NCBI GenBank assembly: GCA_022446905.1
Contig: JAKVBT010000005.1
Span: 738,451 to 802,450, forward strand
From: Phycisphaerales bacterium
GTDB taxonomy: Bacteria; Planctomycetota; Phycisphaerae; Phycisphaerales; SM1A02
DNA length: 64,000 nt
Reading direction: 5' to 3'
A program made the translations under genes and the position numbers. The notes beneath the pieces are model-generated. The model was not told the DNA's origin. It did no database searches and worked only from the letters and a program-made list of their open reading frames with translations. Positions 22,560-39,833 of this stretch are shown here, piece by piece. Positions within the stretch are counted from its first letter, which is position 1; each line of letters starts with the position of its first letter.

Positions 22560-23405
22560 ATGTCACACACTTGCCCCGTCGGGCCAATCACCATCGGCCC
22601 TGAATACGAGCTCACCATCATCGCTGGTCCCTGCGTGCTTGAGGAAGATGCCATACAGCACGCCATCTGCGAGCGGATGCAACGCGTCTGTGCAGACCTT
22701 GGAGTGCCCTGGATCTTCAAGGGAAGCTTTGACAAGGCCAACCGCACCAGCCTGACCAGCCCACGCGGCCCAGGACTCAACCAAGGCCTTCAACGACTGG
22801 CAAGCATCCGCGATCAGTACGAGGTCCCAGTCACTACGGACGTCCATGAACCTGATCAGGCAGCCGCTGTTGCCGAGGTCGTCGACCTGCTCCAGGTCCC
22901 CGCCTTTCTTTGCCGACAGACAGACTTGCTCGCTGCCTGTGGCAAGACCGGCAAACCAATGAATATCAAGAAGGGACAGTTTCTCTCCCCTTCTGAAATG
23001 TCCTACGCCGCTGACAAAGCGATGCAAGCTGGCGCCGGCGGACTGATGCTTACAGAACGCGGCACCTTCTTCGGCTATCACCGCCTTGTCAATGATTTCA
23101 TCGGCCTTGGTGATCTTGCTGATCTTGGATGGCCGGTCTGCTTTGATGTCACCCACTCCACCCAACTTCCAGGTGGCGGTTCTGGACGAAGTGGCGGACG
23201 ACCGGATCGAGCCGGATTGCTGGCACGAGCCGCAGCGGCGGCAGGGGTTGATGCGCTTTTTCTTGAAATTCACCCCAATCCGGAGGCCGCAGCATCCGAT
23301 GCATCCACTGTGCAGTCACTGGATGCCGCAGAAGCTCTTATTCGCGAAGCTGTCACGATTCGCCGCGCCTGGCGCTCGTGTTGCGACGGGGCGATGACCT
23401 CATGA
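22560..23405 (+). CDS. kdsA: 3-deoxy-8-phosphooctulonate synthase (Kdo-8-P synthase)
   Basis: 281 residues, the standard length. It begins with the IIAGPCVLE motif, then FKGSFDKANRTS, VPVTTDVHEP, VDLLQVPAFLCRQTDLL, NIKKGQFLSP, LTERGTFFGYH and VCFDVTHSTQLPG, which line the PEP and arabinose-5-P site. It makes the Kdo precursor for LPS. KdsD, which supplies arabinose-5-P, is encoded at 34.6 kb. The stop overlaps the mcsA start, making a three-gene unit with the arginine kinase pair. Confidence 0.96.
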   Translation: MSHTCPVGPITIGPEYELTIIAGPCVLEEDAIQHAICERMQRVCADLGVPWIFKGSFDKANRTSLTSPRGPGLNQGLQRLASIRDQYEVPVTTDVHEPDQAAAVAEVVDLLQVPAFLCRQTDLLAACGKTGKPMNIKKGQFLSPSEMSYAADKAMQAGAGGLMLTERGTFFGYHRLVNDFIGLGDLADLGWPVCFDVTHSTQLPGGGSGRSGGRPDRAGLLARAAAAAGVDALFLEIHPNPEAAASDASTVQSLDAAEALIREAVTIRRAWRSCCDGAMTS

Positions 23406-34554: not shown

Positions 34555-35673
34555 ATGTCCGGCGACCTCCGCCGGCCAGGGAAAGGCATCGTACACGGCA
34601 TGACCGCCCCGACTCCACCGACAGCAAACTCCCCGGCATCCGAACCAGATGGTTTGGACGCTGCTGCCGCCACACGCCAATCACTCCACGAAGTACTGCA
34701 CCACGAAGCGGTCGCCTTGGGCGAACTCGCAGCCAGGCTTGAGCAAGATCCGACCGAGGCCGCCCACTGGACCCAGGCTGTGGCCCTCATCGCTGACTGC
34801 CAAGGCCATGTGGTGGTCTCGGGAATGGGCAAGTCCGGACTGGTTGGCGCCAAGATTTCAGCCACCATGTCTTCTCTGGGGATCCCCTCCCACACCGTAC
34901 ATCCTGCCGATGCCATGCACGGTGACCTCGGTGCGATTCGCCGGGACGACGTTGTTGTGCTGCTGAGTTTCTCGGGCGCGACCAGAGAGATCATCGAGCT
35001 TGCAACGGTACTGGGCACCGATGGGGTGAAACGACTGGGAATCTCCCGTTCTCATGATTCACCACTTGGCCGCCTCTGCGATGCCCATCTGGCTCTGGGC
35101 GATCTTGATGAAGCTGGATCGCTCAGCCTCGCCCCAACGACATCGACAACCGTCACGATGGCGTGCGGCGATGCGCTGGCACTGACCGTGGCGCATCAAC
35201 GCAACTTCACGGCCACCGATTTCCAACAACGACATCCTGGGGGCTCGCTTGGCGCGATGCTTCGACCAGTTGAAGCATTGCTCCGTTTCCGGGTCGGCGA
35301 CAACCTCAGCACAGTGCCCCCAAACACTCCGCTGCGAGAAGCGCTCGCCCAAAGCGCACTTGCCTCAGACAGTCCAATTCGTCATGCCGGAGCCGTCCTT
35401 GTAGTCGATGCAGATGGCTGCCTCATTGGCCTGTTTACCGATGGTGATTTGAGACGATTGGTGCTGGAGAACCCTGATAGCCTCGATCAACCCGTCTCAG
35501 AAGTCATGACCGCCAACCCACTGACCGTGTCAGCTGACACCACAGTGGCGGCAGCACGTCAGACAGTGTCGACCCATCGCATTGACGAGTTGCCAGTGGT
35601 CGACGCGAACCACCGACCAGTGGGCCTGATCGACATTCAGGATCTCCTTGCCCCCCGCGTGGCCATGGACTAA
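34555..35673 (+). CDS. kdsD: Arabinose-5-phosphate isomerase (SIS plus two CBS domains)
   Basis: 372 residues (357 if the ATG at 34600 is used). The SIS domain (about residues 75-220) carries VVVSGMGKSGLVGAKISATM, HPADAMHGDLGAI and LLSFSGATREII. The paired CBS domains (about 250-370) include FTDGDLRRLVLE, VMTANPLTVSADT and IDELPVVDANHRPVGLIDIQDLL. It converts ribulose-5-P to arabinose-5-P for Kdo, feeding kdsA. The KdsD/KpsF/GutQ assignment rests on domain order. The next two genes, a proteasome-like hydrolase and an LptC-like protein, follow tightly. Confidence 0.92.
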   Translation: MSGDLRRPGKGIVHGMTAPTPPTANSPASEPDGLDAAAATRQSLHEVLHHEAVALGELAARLEQDPTEAAHWTQAVALIADCQGHVVVSGMGKSGLVGAKISATMSSLGIPSHTVHPADAMHGDLGAIRRDDVVVLLSFSGATREIIELATVLGTDGVKRLGISRSHDSPLGRLCDAHLALGDLDEAGSLSLAPTTSTTVTMACGDALALTVAHQRNFTATDFQQRHPGGSLGAMLRPVEALLRFRVGDNLSTVPPNTPLREALAQSALASDSPIRHAGAVLVVDADGCLIGLFTDGDLRRLVLENPDSLDQPVSEVMTANPLTVSADTTVAAARQTVSTHRIDELPVVDANHRPVGLIDIQDLLAPRVAMD

Positions 35674-35679
35674 TCCACC

Positions 35680-36255
35680 ATGTCGATCGTGACTGCCGTT
35701 CGAAGTTCTCAGGCGATCACCATTGCCGCTGACACACTGGCCGTCTTCGGCGAGGGCATGGTCGTCCCGACGGAGAATGCTCGCACGAGCAAGTTGATGC
35801 GCATTGGCGATGCCGTCATCGGTGGAACCGGGTGGGCCGTGTATGACGACATCATTGATCACCACCTGACTGACCGGCCTGCCCCATCATTAACGACAAG
35901 ACGCCACATCTACGCGTTCTTCCTTGAACTCTGGGGCGTGCTGCGGGACAGATACACCCTTGTCAACGAACAAGCAGCCAGCAAAGACACCCCCTTCGGT
36001 GATCTTGATGCATCCTTCCTCGTCGCTTCGCCTGGCGGACTCTTTAAGGTTTCAAGTGATCTTGGTGTCACTGAGTTTGCACGCTGGTATGCCATCGGGT
36101 CTGGGGCCGAATATGCCATGGGTGCTATGCATGCCACAGTCAAGCACAGACTTGACGATGAGTCCATTGCCCGAGCAGGCTGCCAAGCAGCCATGGAACT
36201 CGATGCACATTGTGGCGGCGAGATCGATCTCCTTCGCGTTGAGTTACAGGCATGA
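35680..36255 (+). CDS. Proteasome/HslV-like Ntn hydrolase (BPH-like)
   Basis: 191 residues resembling self-compartmentalising proteasome-family subunits outside the HslV and 20S groups. If the initiator Met is removed, the chain begins SIVTAVR..., with Ser1 where HslV has Thr1, Asp17 in TIAADTLA, and a Lys37 in TSKLMRIGDAVIGGTGW at the place of HslV Lys33. The C-terminal region IGSGAEYAMGAMHATV resembles HslV GAGGNYAL. No HslU-type unfoldase is adjacent. It lies 6 bases after kdsD and overlaps the LptC-like gene by ATGA, so all three are likely one operon. Activity is inferred, not proven. Confidence 0.75.
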   Translation: MSIVTAVRSSQAITIAADTLAVFGEGMVVPTENARTSKLMRIGDAVIGGTGWAVYDDIIDHHLTDRPAPSLTTRRHIYAFFLELWGVLRDRYTLVNEQAASKDTPFGDLDASFLVASPGGLFKVSSDLGVTEFARWYAIGSGAEYAMGAMHATVKHRLDDESIARAGCQAAMELDAHCGGEIDLLRVELQA

Positions 36256-39200
36256 ACCAGTCACCAGCGATTCGTTGGGGTCTGATCGGCGCAGTCATTT
36301 CTGTCGTCGTGTTGGGCATTCTGCTCTTGTTCGAAGCGCCATCAGCACCACCGCAAACCAAAGAGAAACCCGTCATTGATTTGATTGGCCCAGCCCCACT
36401 GCAGGACGCATCAGAAGTTGGACAGGGCATGACGGATCCAGACATGGCCGTGTCGCTCCCAGAAGGTGGATGGCTGCAAGTGGCAGGTGATGATGGACAA
36501 CTCTCGCAGCAGTACCGCTTCTCGCATCTGGACCCAGACCCTCCCGCGATGCCAGACAATTGGATTGCCATGCAGGACCTCGTCGTGGAGATGTTCATGC
36601 ATGGTGGGCGGCTGATCACTCTAGAGGGCGATCGCGCTGTGGCCTATGCCCCGCGACGAGCGCTGGAAGAGGGGCGGCTAATCGGCAATGTCGTGATTCG
36701 CATGTTCGAGTCCGTTGGTGGAACCTGGCCGGATCCAGCCAAGAGCACCCCATCGATGACCGTCAACACCACTGCGGCTGCATTTGACAATCTCAGTGGC
36801 CGCATCACCTGTGAGAGTGATGTCAAAATCGTGACATCGACTGAGGAGATGAAAGGCGAAGATCTCCAAATCCTGCTCAACGATCGCGATGATCGCATTG
36901 AGTACCTACGTTTTGAAAAGGTGGACTATCTCTTGATCCGCGAGCTACAGGGAAGCGATCAGCCTGTGGTCTCGCATCGCCATGTCCATCCAGCCATCGC
37001 CAAAAGCTCAGGCACACGAATCATCCCTGTCAAGCAATCGGCACCGCCGCCCAAAGATGTCCCCTTCTATGTGCTGACCATGGAACAGGACGTACGGATC
37101 GTGCAATCGCCGCCAGCAGATGCAGCTGACCCACGCCTTGGCCGAGTCGCTACAGCCGATCTTTTAACCGTCTTTTTCTCTTTGGAAGCAGATGCCTTTG
37201 ATACACAAGAACCACCACCGCCAGCGACCTCAATGGGCGGGACAGGTCTTCTCGTGGCCATGGCGATGGGCGCAGCGCCTCCAATTCCAGCGCCTGAAGA
37301 GATCTTGGTGACATGTAGTGGCCCCATGGAAATGGTCCCCTTAGAGGATGATTCCCTCCGCCCGCCCACACCCCAGGATGTGCGGCTTGAACTATCAGGG
37401 GCGCCAGTGGAGGTCCGAGACCTCAGTCAGAACCTCTCAGTGACCTGTGGGCTACTGACATGGCGCACGCAGATGGAACGCGTCGATCTCACGCGTGCTG
37501 ATATGCGCCACGTGATCATCACCACAGATGATTTGCGCCTCGAAAGTGACGCCGTCTGGGCACGGCCAGACCATGGAGAAGCGGGGATCGACGCAGAGGG
37601 AATGGCTGTCCTCTCACCAACCGATGGTGGGAGCGAAGAAACCACGATCACCTGGCAACAGAAGGTCAAGATTGCATTTGATCCCGCCACGGAACAGCAG
37701 GACCAAGGCATGCGCTCTATCCGCTTTATGAAAGACGTCGAGGTTAAGGACGAAAGCGGCAACATTTCCACAGATGATCTAACGATGCGCTTTAAGAGAG
37801 ATCCCCAAGGAGCATCTCGACCAAGTCGCCTGATCGCCCGCCGCGGTGTTCGCGCCGCTAATGCCCAGCAAGTTCTCTGGTCCGACCAACTCGAAGCCAG
37901 CATTGAGCCCGCAGCTGATGCAGATTCCACAGAAGACACTCAAAAACTGGATGTCCGCAGCTTTGCAGCTGAAGGTGGTGTGCAAGTACGCATGGCTGAT
38001 GGTGGCCGGGTGTGGGCCGAACGCATGGAAGGCGATGCCCAACAAGAGATCATCGACCTGACCGGTTCAGATGTCACGATTGCACGCCGTGATGTCATCA
38101 TTGGACACGGAAAACATCTGCGAGTCGAACGACTTGCCGGAACAGCAGACTGGGATGGAAGTGGACGAGCCATGCTTCTGGGCACGCCAATTGATGTCAC
38201 TGCCGATCAGCCGATAGATCGCCCCGCTCTGCCTTCAACCCCAGGGCCTGACGACACCCAGATTGACTGGAACAATGGAGTCCACATCACCTTCGATCCA
38301 GATGATCAAGGTCAGGATGTCCTCCTCAAATCCATCAACTTCCATGAAGACGTTGTGGTGCAATCCCCCGACGGGTCAATATCAGCAGGCGAGCTGTCGA
38401 TGACATTTGTTCCAGATGACAGCGGTGAAGCCCGACCAGACCAACTGGTCTGCCGCACGCGGGTACATGCGCGCAATGACCAACAATCACTCTGGGCAGA
38501 CCAACTGGTCGCCGGACTCGATACTGCAGATGAGAAGCCCGCCGAAGATTCGCCCCAGCAAGGCGGACTTCATTCCGACAACATCATCGTTCGTGACTTC
38601 GATGCCACTGGCAACGTGCAGGTACTCACAGCAGACGGCGCACGTGCTTTTGCTCAACGGCTGCAGGGCGACGCGCAACAGGAGGTCGCTCGTCTAACCG
38701 GTGACGACGTGCTCATTGCACGCAGTGATGTCGTCATCGATCGAGGAAACGACCTGCGACTTGACCGCCATGCCGGGACCGCGGATTGGATCGGCCCTGG
38801 CAGATCCAGAATGCTTGCCACCCCTATTGACATCAGCGCCAACAACAGAATCCCACCACCAAGAATTGTCGGCCAAGATGGTGGGCCAACTGTGACCATG
38901 CGCACAACCTGGACCGAGTCCATGCACTATGACAGCACGTTTGCAAACGGGGCTGGCGCGCTGGACATTACCGGCAATGTGGAATCTGTGGTCGACCGAT
39001 CCGACACCGAACGCAGCAGTCTCAAGGGTGACACACTGCGATTGGAGTTTGCTCGAGTCGTTGGAGGGTCAACTGAAACTCAGACGCCGACCAATGACAG
39101 CGACGCCATTGACCCATTTGGATCCGGAGATCGTGTCCTTGAACTGTTGATTGCCCGTGGCCAAGCCCGCCTAGAGTCGCGCACCTGGCCAACCGCGGAA

Positions 39201-39833
39201 CGAACGGCACTGCCGCGCGTGTTCTACGTCGGCGCCATGCACCTCACTTGGAATGATCTCAGATCAGAAGCAAAAATCGTCGGCGATGGCGACCTGATCA
39301 TTCGCGAACCGAACTGGGAACAAAAACAACGCACCGGCGATGGGCCATTCTCGGGACCAGGCACCAGCCGTTTTACCTGGTCACAGAATCTGGACTTAAC
39401 CCGTGAGCAAGATGATCGTTTTCGAATCACCATGACCGGAGACGTGCAGGGACGCTGGAAGAGCGCCATTGATCGCCGCGATATCGCCACCATCACCGCA
39501 CAGTACGTAGAAGTACTTACACGACGAGGCGAGGAGTCTTTGACCCTGGAAGCAGATGCCCCACTGGACATGGGCTCTGATATGGAAGTCGATCAACTTC
39601 GCGCTCGCGAGCGCGTCTATCTCGCGACTCCCACTCGGCGGGTTGACTGCCATCAGGTCGATTACAACTCGCGCACACGAATTGCCGAATTGTCCAGCAG
39701 GCCGGGTCGCACCGTATCCCTGATCACAGAGGGATCACCCATGCCCGTCCAAGCCACCCAAATGGTCTGGAATATGGACCCAGATGTGGACACGATCACA
39801 CTGGAACGACCGCGAGGATCAGGCATTCCCTGA
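36252..39833 (+). CDS. Giant LptC/OstA-like periplasmic protein with internal duplication
   Basis: 1193 residues. The N-terminal single membrane anchor (WGLIGAVISVVVLGILLLF) and the beta-rich LptC/OstA-like body (DLVVEMFMHGGRLITLEGDRAVAYAP) suggest a role in LPS export in the periplasm. Two homologous segments of about 190-195 residues lie at residues 462-653 and 667-863: each has a DWNNGVHITFDP-like strand, ARNDQQSLWADQL, QGDAQQEVARLTG and HAGTADW followed by ATPIDISAN-like. The extra domains would lengthen a beta-jellyroll bridge. It overlaps the hydrolase gene by ATGA. Substrate is inferred from the kdsD context. Confidence 0.72.
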   Translation: MNQSPAIRWGLIGAVISVVVLGILLLFEAPSAPPQTKEKPVIDLIGPAPLQDASEVGQGMTDPDMAVSLPEGGWLQVAGDDGQLSQQYRFSHLDPDPPAMPDNWIAMQDLVVEMFMHGGRLITLEGDRAVAYAPRRALEEGRLIGNVVIRMFESVGGTWPDPAKSTPSMTVNTTAAAFDNLSGRITCESDVKIVTSTEEMKGEDLQILLNDRDDRIEYLRFEKVDYLLIRELQGSDQPVVSHRHVHPAIAKSSGTRIIPVKQSAPPPKDVPFYVLTMEQDVRIVQSPPADAADPRLGRVATADLLTVFFSLEADAFDTQEPPPPATSMGGTGLLVAMAMGAAPPIPAPEEILVTCSGPMEMVPLEDDSLRPPTPQDVRLELSGAPVEVRDLSQNLSVTCGLLTWRTQMERVDLTRADMRHVIITTDDLRLESDAVWARPDHGEAGIDAEGMAVLSPTDGGSEETTITWQQKVKIAFDPATEQQDQGMRSIRFMKDVEVKDESGNISTDDLTMRFKRDPQGASRPSRLIARRGVRAANAQQVLWSDQLEASIEPAADADSTEDTQKLDVRSFAAEGGVQVRMADGGRVWAERMEGDAQQEIIDLTGSDVTIARRDVIIGHGKHLRVERLAGTADWDGSGRAMLLGTPIDVTADQPIDRPALPSTPGPDDTQIDWNNGVHITFDPDDQGQDVLLKSINFHEDVVVQSPDGSISAGELSMTFVPDDSGEARPDQLVCRTRVHARNDQQSLWADQLVAGLDTADEKPAEDSPQQGGLHSDNIIVRDFDATGNVQVLTADGARAFAQRLQGDAQQEVARLTGDDVLIARSDVVIDRGNDLRLDRHAGTADWIGPGRSRMLATPIDISANNRIPPPRIVGQDGGPTVTMRTTWTESMHYDSTFANGAGALDITGNVESVVDRSDTERSSLKGDTLRLEFARVVGGSTETQTPTNDSDAIDPFGSGDRVLELLIARGQARLESRTWPTAERTALPRVFYVGAMHLTWNDLRSEAKIVGDGDLIIREPNWEQKQRTGDGPFSGPGTSRFTWSQNLDLTREQDDRFRITMTGDVQGRWKSAIDRRDIATITAQYVEVLTRRGEESLTLEADAPLDMGSDMEVDQLRARERVYLATPTRRVDCHQVDYNSRTRIAELSSRPGRTVSLITEGSPMPVQATQMVWNMDPDVDTITLERPRGSGIP
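37635..38842 (+). repeat. Tandem ~195-codon duplication inside the LptC-like gene
   Basis: The protein segments at residues 462-653 (37635-38210) and 667-863 (38250-38842) align along their length. They share strands around ADQLEAS/ADQLVAG, GDAQQEI/GDAQQEV, DVTIARRDVII/DVLIARSDVVI and GTADW, with the final GTPIDV/ATPIDI. Divergence of the copies suggests an old duplication rather than an assembly artefact. Confidence 0.65.

Follow-up and report, generated by a model that had tools for sequence, protein, structure and literature searches.

The closest described systems to the gene studied here are the two bacterial proteasome homologues (BPH) of known structure, Td-BPH from Thiobacillus denitrificans (5OVS/5OVT) and Cm-BPH from Cupriavidus metallidurans (5OVU). 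In the paper describing them (PMC5777263), BPH is reported to lack both a propeptide and an unfoldase partner, to assemble as a tetradecameric double ring and, from the two betaproteobacterial structures, to carry a long, acidic pore loop. Thr1, Asp17 and Lys37 are given for Td-BPH, epoxomicin was bound at residue 1 of both proteins, and removal of the initiator methionine of Cm-BPH was seen by mass spectrometry. Both proteins were inert on casein and on all standard peptides, so that it is not proven that members of the family are active peptidases. Pull-downs with Cm-BPH gave no ATPase, the residues of the HslU interface are said not to be conserved, the operon contexts given are those of argG, pyruvate dehydrogenase and Hsp33, and residue 1 is stated to be serine in all BPHs known outside the Betaproteobacteria. 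A 2021 survey of proteasome homologues (PMC8665760) lists BPH in the PVC group and gives neither a genomic context nor a co-occurrence that would suggest a function for its new homologues; it also reports a proteasome-like connectase that is a ligase. BPH has no known substrate, partner or pathway, and a position within an operon is a testable hint of its role.

Here we describe a BPH gene lying within a Kdo/LPS-transport operon of one planctomycete group. It was found in a stretch of 64,000 nucleotides from a Phycisphaerales bacterium, called the window below. Searches of open-licence PMC papers gave none that connects BPH with kdsD or lptC. As serine at residue 1, the missing unfoldase and occurrence in the PVC group are already published, the kind of protein and its nucleophile are not new; its place in this operon is.

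A BPH family member with serine at residue 1

The gene and the positions within it that are discussed below are as follows, numbered from the first letter of the window.

35671..35673, + strand: TAA stop codon that ends kdsD, three codons before the BPH ATG and in frame with it
35680..36255, + strand: BPH-family proteasome-like peptidase of 191 amino acids without a propeptide, predicted from ORF translation, alignment and fold model
35683..35685, + strand: Ser1 codon, predicted nucleophile after methionine removal (alignment)
35731..35733, + strand: Asp17 codon, D18 when numbered from the methionine (alignment)
35791..35793, + strand: Lys37 codon, Met-numbered K38, counterpart of proteasome Lys33 (alignment; PMC5777263)
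35830..35832, + strand: Gly50 codon, Met-numbered G51, the oxyanion-hole glycine of BPH (alignment; PMC5777263)
35953..36015, + strand: pore-loop region YTLVNEQAASKDTPFGDLDAS (alignment and fold model)
36100..36102, + strand: serine at the place of Td-BPH Ser139, which hydrogen-bonds the nucleophile (alignment; PMC5777263)

A first-pass annotation, made from the letters of the window, had read the product as a BPH-like member of the proteasome (Ntn hydrolase) family. Automatic libraries give it no name, since it scored below the cut-offs of both the Pfam Proteasome family (17.9 bits, cut-off 22.4) and the NCBIfam HslV family TIGR03692 (25.2 bits, far below 157.75). A sequence search of the PDB had Td-BPH (5ovs) as its top match (E 5.4e-24), with Cm-BPH (5ovu) matched at E 1.3e-21, both over nearly the whole length, and HslV at an E of only 0.056. 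An AlphaFold2 monomer model, built from 61 window and locus sequences, had a pLDDT of 89.8 and a pTM of 0.88; ranks 1-6 of a Foldseek search with it were all BPH chains, and VIA-align placed it on Td-BPH with a Z of 27.6 and an rmsd of 1.4 Å over 180 residues (model residue 2 on chain residue 1); the Z for Cm-BPH was 22.6 and that for E. coli HslV 19.4. In a tree, a branch of support 100 separated 77 BPH rows from 5 of HslV. Profiles and fold thus place the protein inside the proteasome-like Ntn hydrolases, as that annotation had proposed, and the window protein is a full-length member of the BPH family. Membership of HslV, with which it shares the proteasome-beta-like fold, was rejected on the TIGR03692 score and because the genus of the window organism is without HslU; membership of Anbu was rejected because the model ends in a strand (182-188) plus three residues, without the long C-terminal helix H5 joining two layers that was used as the criterion for that family.

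The sequence leading into the ORF reads TAA TCC ACC ATG in frame, which leaves this ATG as the earliest usable start (the second in-frame methionine being Met27), and the protein has no propeptide. As the ORF begins Met-Ser, removal of the methionine would expose serine as residue 1, as the first-pass annotation had expected. Methionine aminopeptidase is expected to strip a methionine that precedes serine.

Residues S2, D18, K38 and G51 (Ser1, Asp17, Lys37 and Gly50) were invariant in a 61-sequence alignment, in agreement with the earlier placing of Ser1, Asp17 and the lysine at 37 on the catalytic residues. Across 71 Ser-type rows S2, K38 and G51 were again invariant and D18 was found in 70, the remaining row (L118) having glutamate. 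The HslV column for Lys33 was mixed in this second alignment through a misalignment, and no use was made of it. Two features picked out in that annotation are genuine but not peculiar to this protein: Lys37 is present, yet the four-residue shift that it was taken to mark is a trait of the BPH family, the Td-BPH lysine being itself Lys37, and Ser1 is confirmed although it was already published for BPH (both PMC5777263). The counterpart of Ser139 is less constant and is replaced by tryptophan or cysteine in 4 of the 41 sequences of the group with kds/lpt neighbours described below.

The window protein thus shares with Td-BPH and Cm-BPH its full-length similarity and predicted fold, the lack of a propeptide and of a HslU partner, Asp17, Lys37, Gly50, the Ser139-like serine and a long pore loop, and differs in having Ser1 rather than Thr1, in its gene context and in having no acidic run in that loop. 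The loop is longer than that of HslV (21 residues in the aligned region, compared to 10 in five HslV sequences) and net negative, with 4 acidic residues and 1 basic among the 21 and no run of acidic residues, where Td-BPH has 7 acidic and 2 basic and Cm-BPH 6 and 1, each of 19. By alignment, then, the acidic run that marks both solved BPHs appears to be missing. The mean number of acidic residues at positions 97-106 was 1.8 in the set with kds/lpt neighbours (41 rows), compared to 3.4 in other Ser-type (30 rows) and 4.0 in Thr-type sequences (6 rows). The loop has the lowest pLDDT of the model, segment 102-105 being below 50.

A segment of the pore loop, PFGDLD (around window residues 105-110), is common to Ser-type BPHs and missing from Thr-type ones. 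It could not be counted from the scan for homologous loci, because PF[GT]DLD was one of the two seeds of that scan, and PFG.(L/I)D was found in seven of the eight Ser-type sequences recovered by profile without a motif seed (L110-L116 and L118). It is possible that this is a substrate-contact or gating motif. Ser1 BPHs from Gammaproteobacteria, Myxococcota, KSB1 and Verrucomicrobiota have the same Ser1, Asp17, Lys37 and PFGDLD as the window protein, and differ from the kds/lpt set in having more acidic residues before PFGDLD and other gene neighbours.

A BPH gene within a putative Kdo/LPS-transport operon

The genes flanking BPH in the window are:

34555..35673, + strand: kdsD, KpsF/GutQ-type arabinose-5-phosphate isomerase with a SIS and 2 CBS domains
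36252..39833, + strand: LptC-like/LptA-like periplasmic transport protein of 1193 amino acids with an N-terminal hydrophobic segment

The kdsD product scored 226.9 bits against the NCBIfam KpsF/GutQ sugar-phosphate isomerases (cut-off 203.7), and its true start may lie further in, as homologues align from about residue 8-46. Near its N-terminus the 1193-residue protein weakly matches LptC (NCBIfam, 16.1 bits against a cut-off of 38), and at 732-840 it matches LptA/LptD_N just over the cut-off (Pfam, 22.2 bits against 20.4); its unusual length possibly means that LptC and LptA functions are combined in one bridge protein. BPH starts 6 bp after the end of kdsD and the LptC-like ORF starts inside the BPH stop codon, with an ATGA overlap at 36252-36255, so that the coupled arrangement described in the first-pass annotation stands. 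Between 34400 and 36500 nothing resembling a promoter was found, nor anything resembling a terminator on the + strand.

A genome-contig scan gave 66 homologous BPH loci. On the same strand, kdsD lay within 500 bp upstream in 36 of the 66 and kdsC or lptC within 200 bp downstream also in 36; one or both were present in 41, all planctomycete. One further locus (L065) has kdsC 759 bp downstream. The other 24 have neither and their neighbours are unrelated, and a general association of BPH with kds/lpt genes was therefore rejected. Three of these 24 are cut close to or inside BPH, the contig ending 116 bp downstream in L084, 2 bp downstream in L107 and 0 bp upstream in L108; contigs also end 37 bp upstream in L065 and under 10 bp downstream in L052 and L081.

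The neighbours of BPH elsewhere were varied. Ser1 BPHs of other Phycisphaerae (L102, L104, L105 and L106) are divergent from the solute-binding, permease and TOBE-ATPase domains of a molybdate-type ABC transporter (L106 read by eye), those of Myxococcota adjoin a patatin-like phospholipase (L084 and L095 by Pfam, L090 by eye) or peptide deformylase (L090 and L092), and the gammaproteobacterial L093 and L099 lie after mnmE.

In most relatives of the window locus kdsC, recognised by its Pfam HAD domain, lies between BPH and lptC, suggesting an ancestral order kdsD-BPH-kdsC-lptC. The E. coli operon yrbG-kdsD-kdsC-lptC-lptA-lptB has the same kdsD-kdsC-lptC order without BPH, and by this comparison the BPH position reads as an insertion into an E. 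coli-like order. KdsC over the curated cut-off was found in none of the nine genomes of the window's genus (G000-G008), where by gene order kdsC seems to have dropped out from between BPH and lptC. This genus still matches KdsD, and KdsA in the 5 genomes tested.

When 30 kdsD loci of the window's family were compared, 11 had BPH and 19 did not, the latter comprising 6 with kdsD-kdsC-lptC, 3 with kdsD-lptC and 10 without kdsC or lptC in the stretch covered. Sister genera keep kdsD-kdsC-lptC without BPH, and a search at E 0.001 found no BPH in 41 of the family's 61 genomes; BPH must therefore be dispensable for the pathway. In a BPH tree without HslV the kds/lpt rows formed one clade of 41 (support 82, not starred), in keeping with a single insertion; with the tree rooted on HslV the placement was not resolved (long branch). 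On a KdsD tree of 56 rows BPH presence changes at least 5 times, suggesting that it was lost (or moved) repeatedly. One genome of the family (G044) has an intact BPH beside kdsC-lptC (L033/L064) and a second BPH start on another contig (L022:1501-1655, contig C205), broken after about 50 codons and some 0.9 kb downstream of kdsD; the operon there seems to have been split by insertion or duplication.

Our preferred reading, in which we have about even confidence and which takes in weak forms of the link, is that BPH in this group would be a self-compartmentalizing Ser1 peptidase that does not depend on HslU and is expressed together with LPS genes. Nearly as likely is that the gene is a passenger, a general unfoldase-independent housekeeping or stress peptidase inserted once in an ancestor and kept in place by a conserved block, with no specific LPS substrate. 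The block is indeed conserved as a whole (purH-nuoB-yihY-rsuA-scpA-kdsD-BPH-lptC, and on to smpB), which makes the neighbourhood weak evidence for function. BPH gain and loss leaves kdsD-kdsC-lptC intact, other Ser1 BPHs adjoin mnmE, molybdate-type transporter, patatin or deformylase genes, and the contexts in PMC5777263 (argG, pyruvate dehydrogenase and Hsp33) are different again. Across 31 loci the distances of BPH correlated with those of kdsD (r 0.807) no better than with those of three control genes (0.785-0.804, scpA giving 0.804), so that co-evolution of BPH and kdsD beyond shared ancestry was rejected; partial correlations of 0.34-0.51 were not counted as evidence. With the conserved block, these equal correlations mean that the neighbourhood supports co-expression more than shared function. 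Against a mere passenger, a few broken-up operons lean slightly towards a closer link: where kdsD and BPH are apart, BPH is still beside kdsC-lptC (L064, L068, L072, L076 and L083), and where kdsC/lptC are elsewhere it is still beside kdsD (L071, with only 794 bp of contig downstream, L073 and L077).

Occurrence of BPH, HslU, HslV and LPS genes in related genomes

BPH was found in 20 of 101 related genomes, namely all nine in the genus of the window organism and 11 from elsewhere in its family. At the same search sensitivity (E 0.001) no match was found in the other 41 of the 61 genomes of that family (G000-G060), or in the remaining 40 genomes, which are from other families of the order. When 392 genomes of the phylum were searched by profile, 48 gave matches; the strong ones (E below 1e-20) came to 15, counting the window's own, and the weak matches, among those inspected, were HslV-type sequences. 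The nearest of the 66 loci were from MAGs named as Phycisphaerales or Planctomycetota. For 10 of 13 close BPH pairs dN/dS was 0.02-0.15 (dS was saturated in the other three), showing that BPH is under purifying selection, and this, together with the 66 homologous loci in public genomes, makes the ORF more than a chance reading frame. A phage origin was rejected, as a viral-contig scan with the alignment A1 gave 185 pattern matches and no relative, the pattern seeds biasing that scan.

Thr1 BPHs were also seen in planctomycetes (L117, L119, L120, L121 and the broken L122, from genomes G188, G272, G225, G366 and G262), four of them, one broken, from a single family (f36). They have acidic loops and group with Td-BPH and Cm-BPH, and are an exception to the 2017 statement (PMC5777263) that BPHs outside the Betaproteobacteria all have Ser1.

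The earlier remark that BPH has no unfoldase neighbour holds, as no unfoldase gene was adjacent to BPH. HslU was over its cut-off in 47 of the 101 genomes, 9 of the 20 bearing BPH and (by subtraction) 38 of the 81 lacking it, so that there is no association of BPH with HslU, and in none of the nine genomes of the window's genus. HslU acting as a partner in trans was therefore rejected for this genus, where BPH cannot depend on it unless nine incomplete assemblies lack it by chance. HslV was likewise over its cut-off in none of the nine, while 10 of the 20 BPH-bearing genomes have it. The proteasome model PF00227 found nothing else in the window's genome; the same model misses BPH itself at E 0.001, and may therefore also have passed over a divergent homologue.

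It is very unlikely that BPH is a protease relying on ClpX or another general AAA+ protein instead of HslU. HslU-related AAA+ fragments, read as other Clp ATPases, occur in 99 of the 101 genomes and could supply one, but no unfoldase gene lies beside BPH, and PMC5777263 reports Cm-BPH pull-downs without an ATPase and HslU-interface residues said not to be conserved.

KdsA scored over its cut-off in the genome of the window and in 3 further genomes of 7, and LpxC in 6 of 7 including the window's, suggesting that Kdo-lipid A synthesis is likely in this organism. The matched part of kdsA lies about 12 kb upstream of BPH:

22611..23369, + strand: kdsA, Kdo-8-phosphate synthase, matched part (= G000:C45:761061-761819)

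Possible function of BPH in this planctomycete group

In the preferred reading of a HslU-independent peptidase co-expressed with LPS genes, kdsD, BPH and the lptC-like gene would be translated from one mRNA, BPH being made without a propeptide and presumably losing its initiator methionine to free Ser1. It would then assemble into a closed double ring with its active sites facing inward, which may accept unfolded or peptide-like substrates with no help from HslU, the long pore loop of BPH itself acting as the gate. The substrates, or the circumstances that call for the peptidase, would belong to Kdo/LPS synthesis and export. The earlier suggestion that the substrate may be an envelope-biogenesis protein is best kept conditional, since the context is conserved in one planctomycete group only and unrelated neighbouring genes are conserved too.

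A stronger form, which we consider unlikely, is that BPH of this group has become a protease dedicated to LPS biogenesis. This Ser1 double ring would need no ATPase, would be produced in concert with KdsD and the Lpt bridge protein, and would trim or remove a Kdo/lipid A enzyme or an unassembled Lpt component, its self-gating doing by analogy the job that FtsH and LapB do on LpxC in enterobacteria. FtsH acting with LapB on LpxC is a precedent for the regulated proteolysis of LPS enzymes.

It is highly improbable that BPH is no protease at all and uses Ser1 as an amidohydrolase, transferase or ligase on one particular peptide or envelope metabolite. In favour of this are the precedent of connectase (PMC8665760), the inertness of characterised BPHs on standard protease substrates, serine instead of threonine and a loop unlike the acidic type. 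Against it, the predicted fold is without the two-helix insertion of connectase (secondary structure) and inhibitor binding in Td-BPH is proteasome-like (PMC5777263).

A conserved operon place in a genus without HslU or HslV narrows the expression unit, the envelope phenotype and the candidate substrates to be considered, and the missing HslU rules it out as a possible BPH partner in that genus. What the window protein usefully adds to a known kind is its operon context, a loop without the acidic run and the missing HslUV. If the link to the operon is only inherited synteny, the value of the finding is one more well-placed BPH subfamily; if BPH were here a dedicated LPS-biogenesis protease, a physiological pathway would for the first time be assigned to the family.
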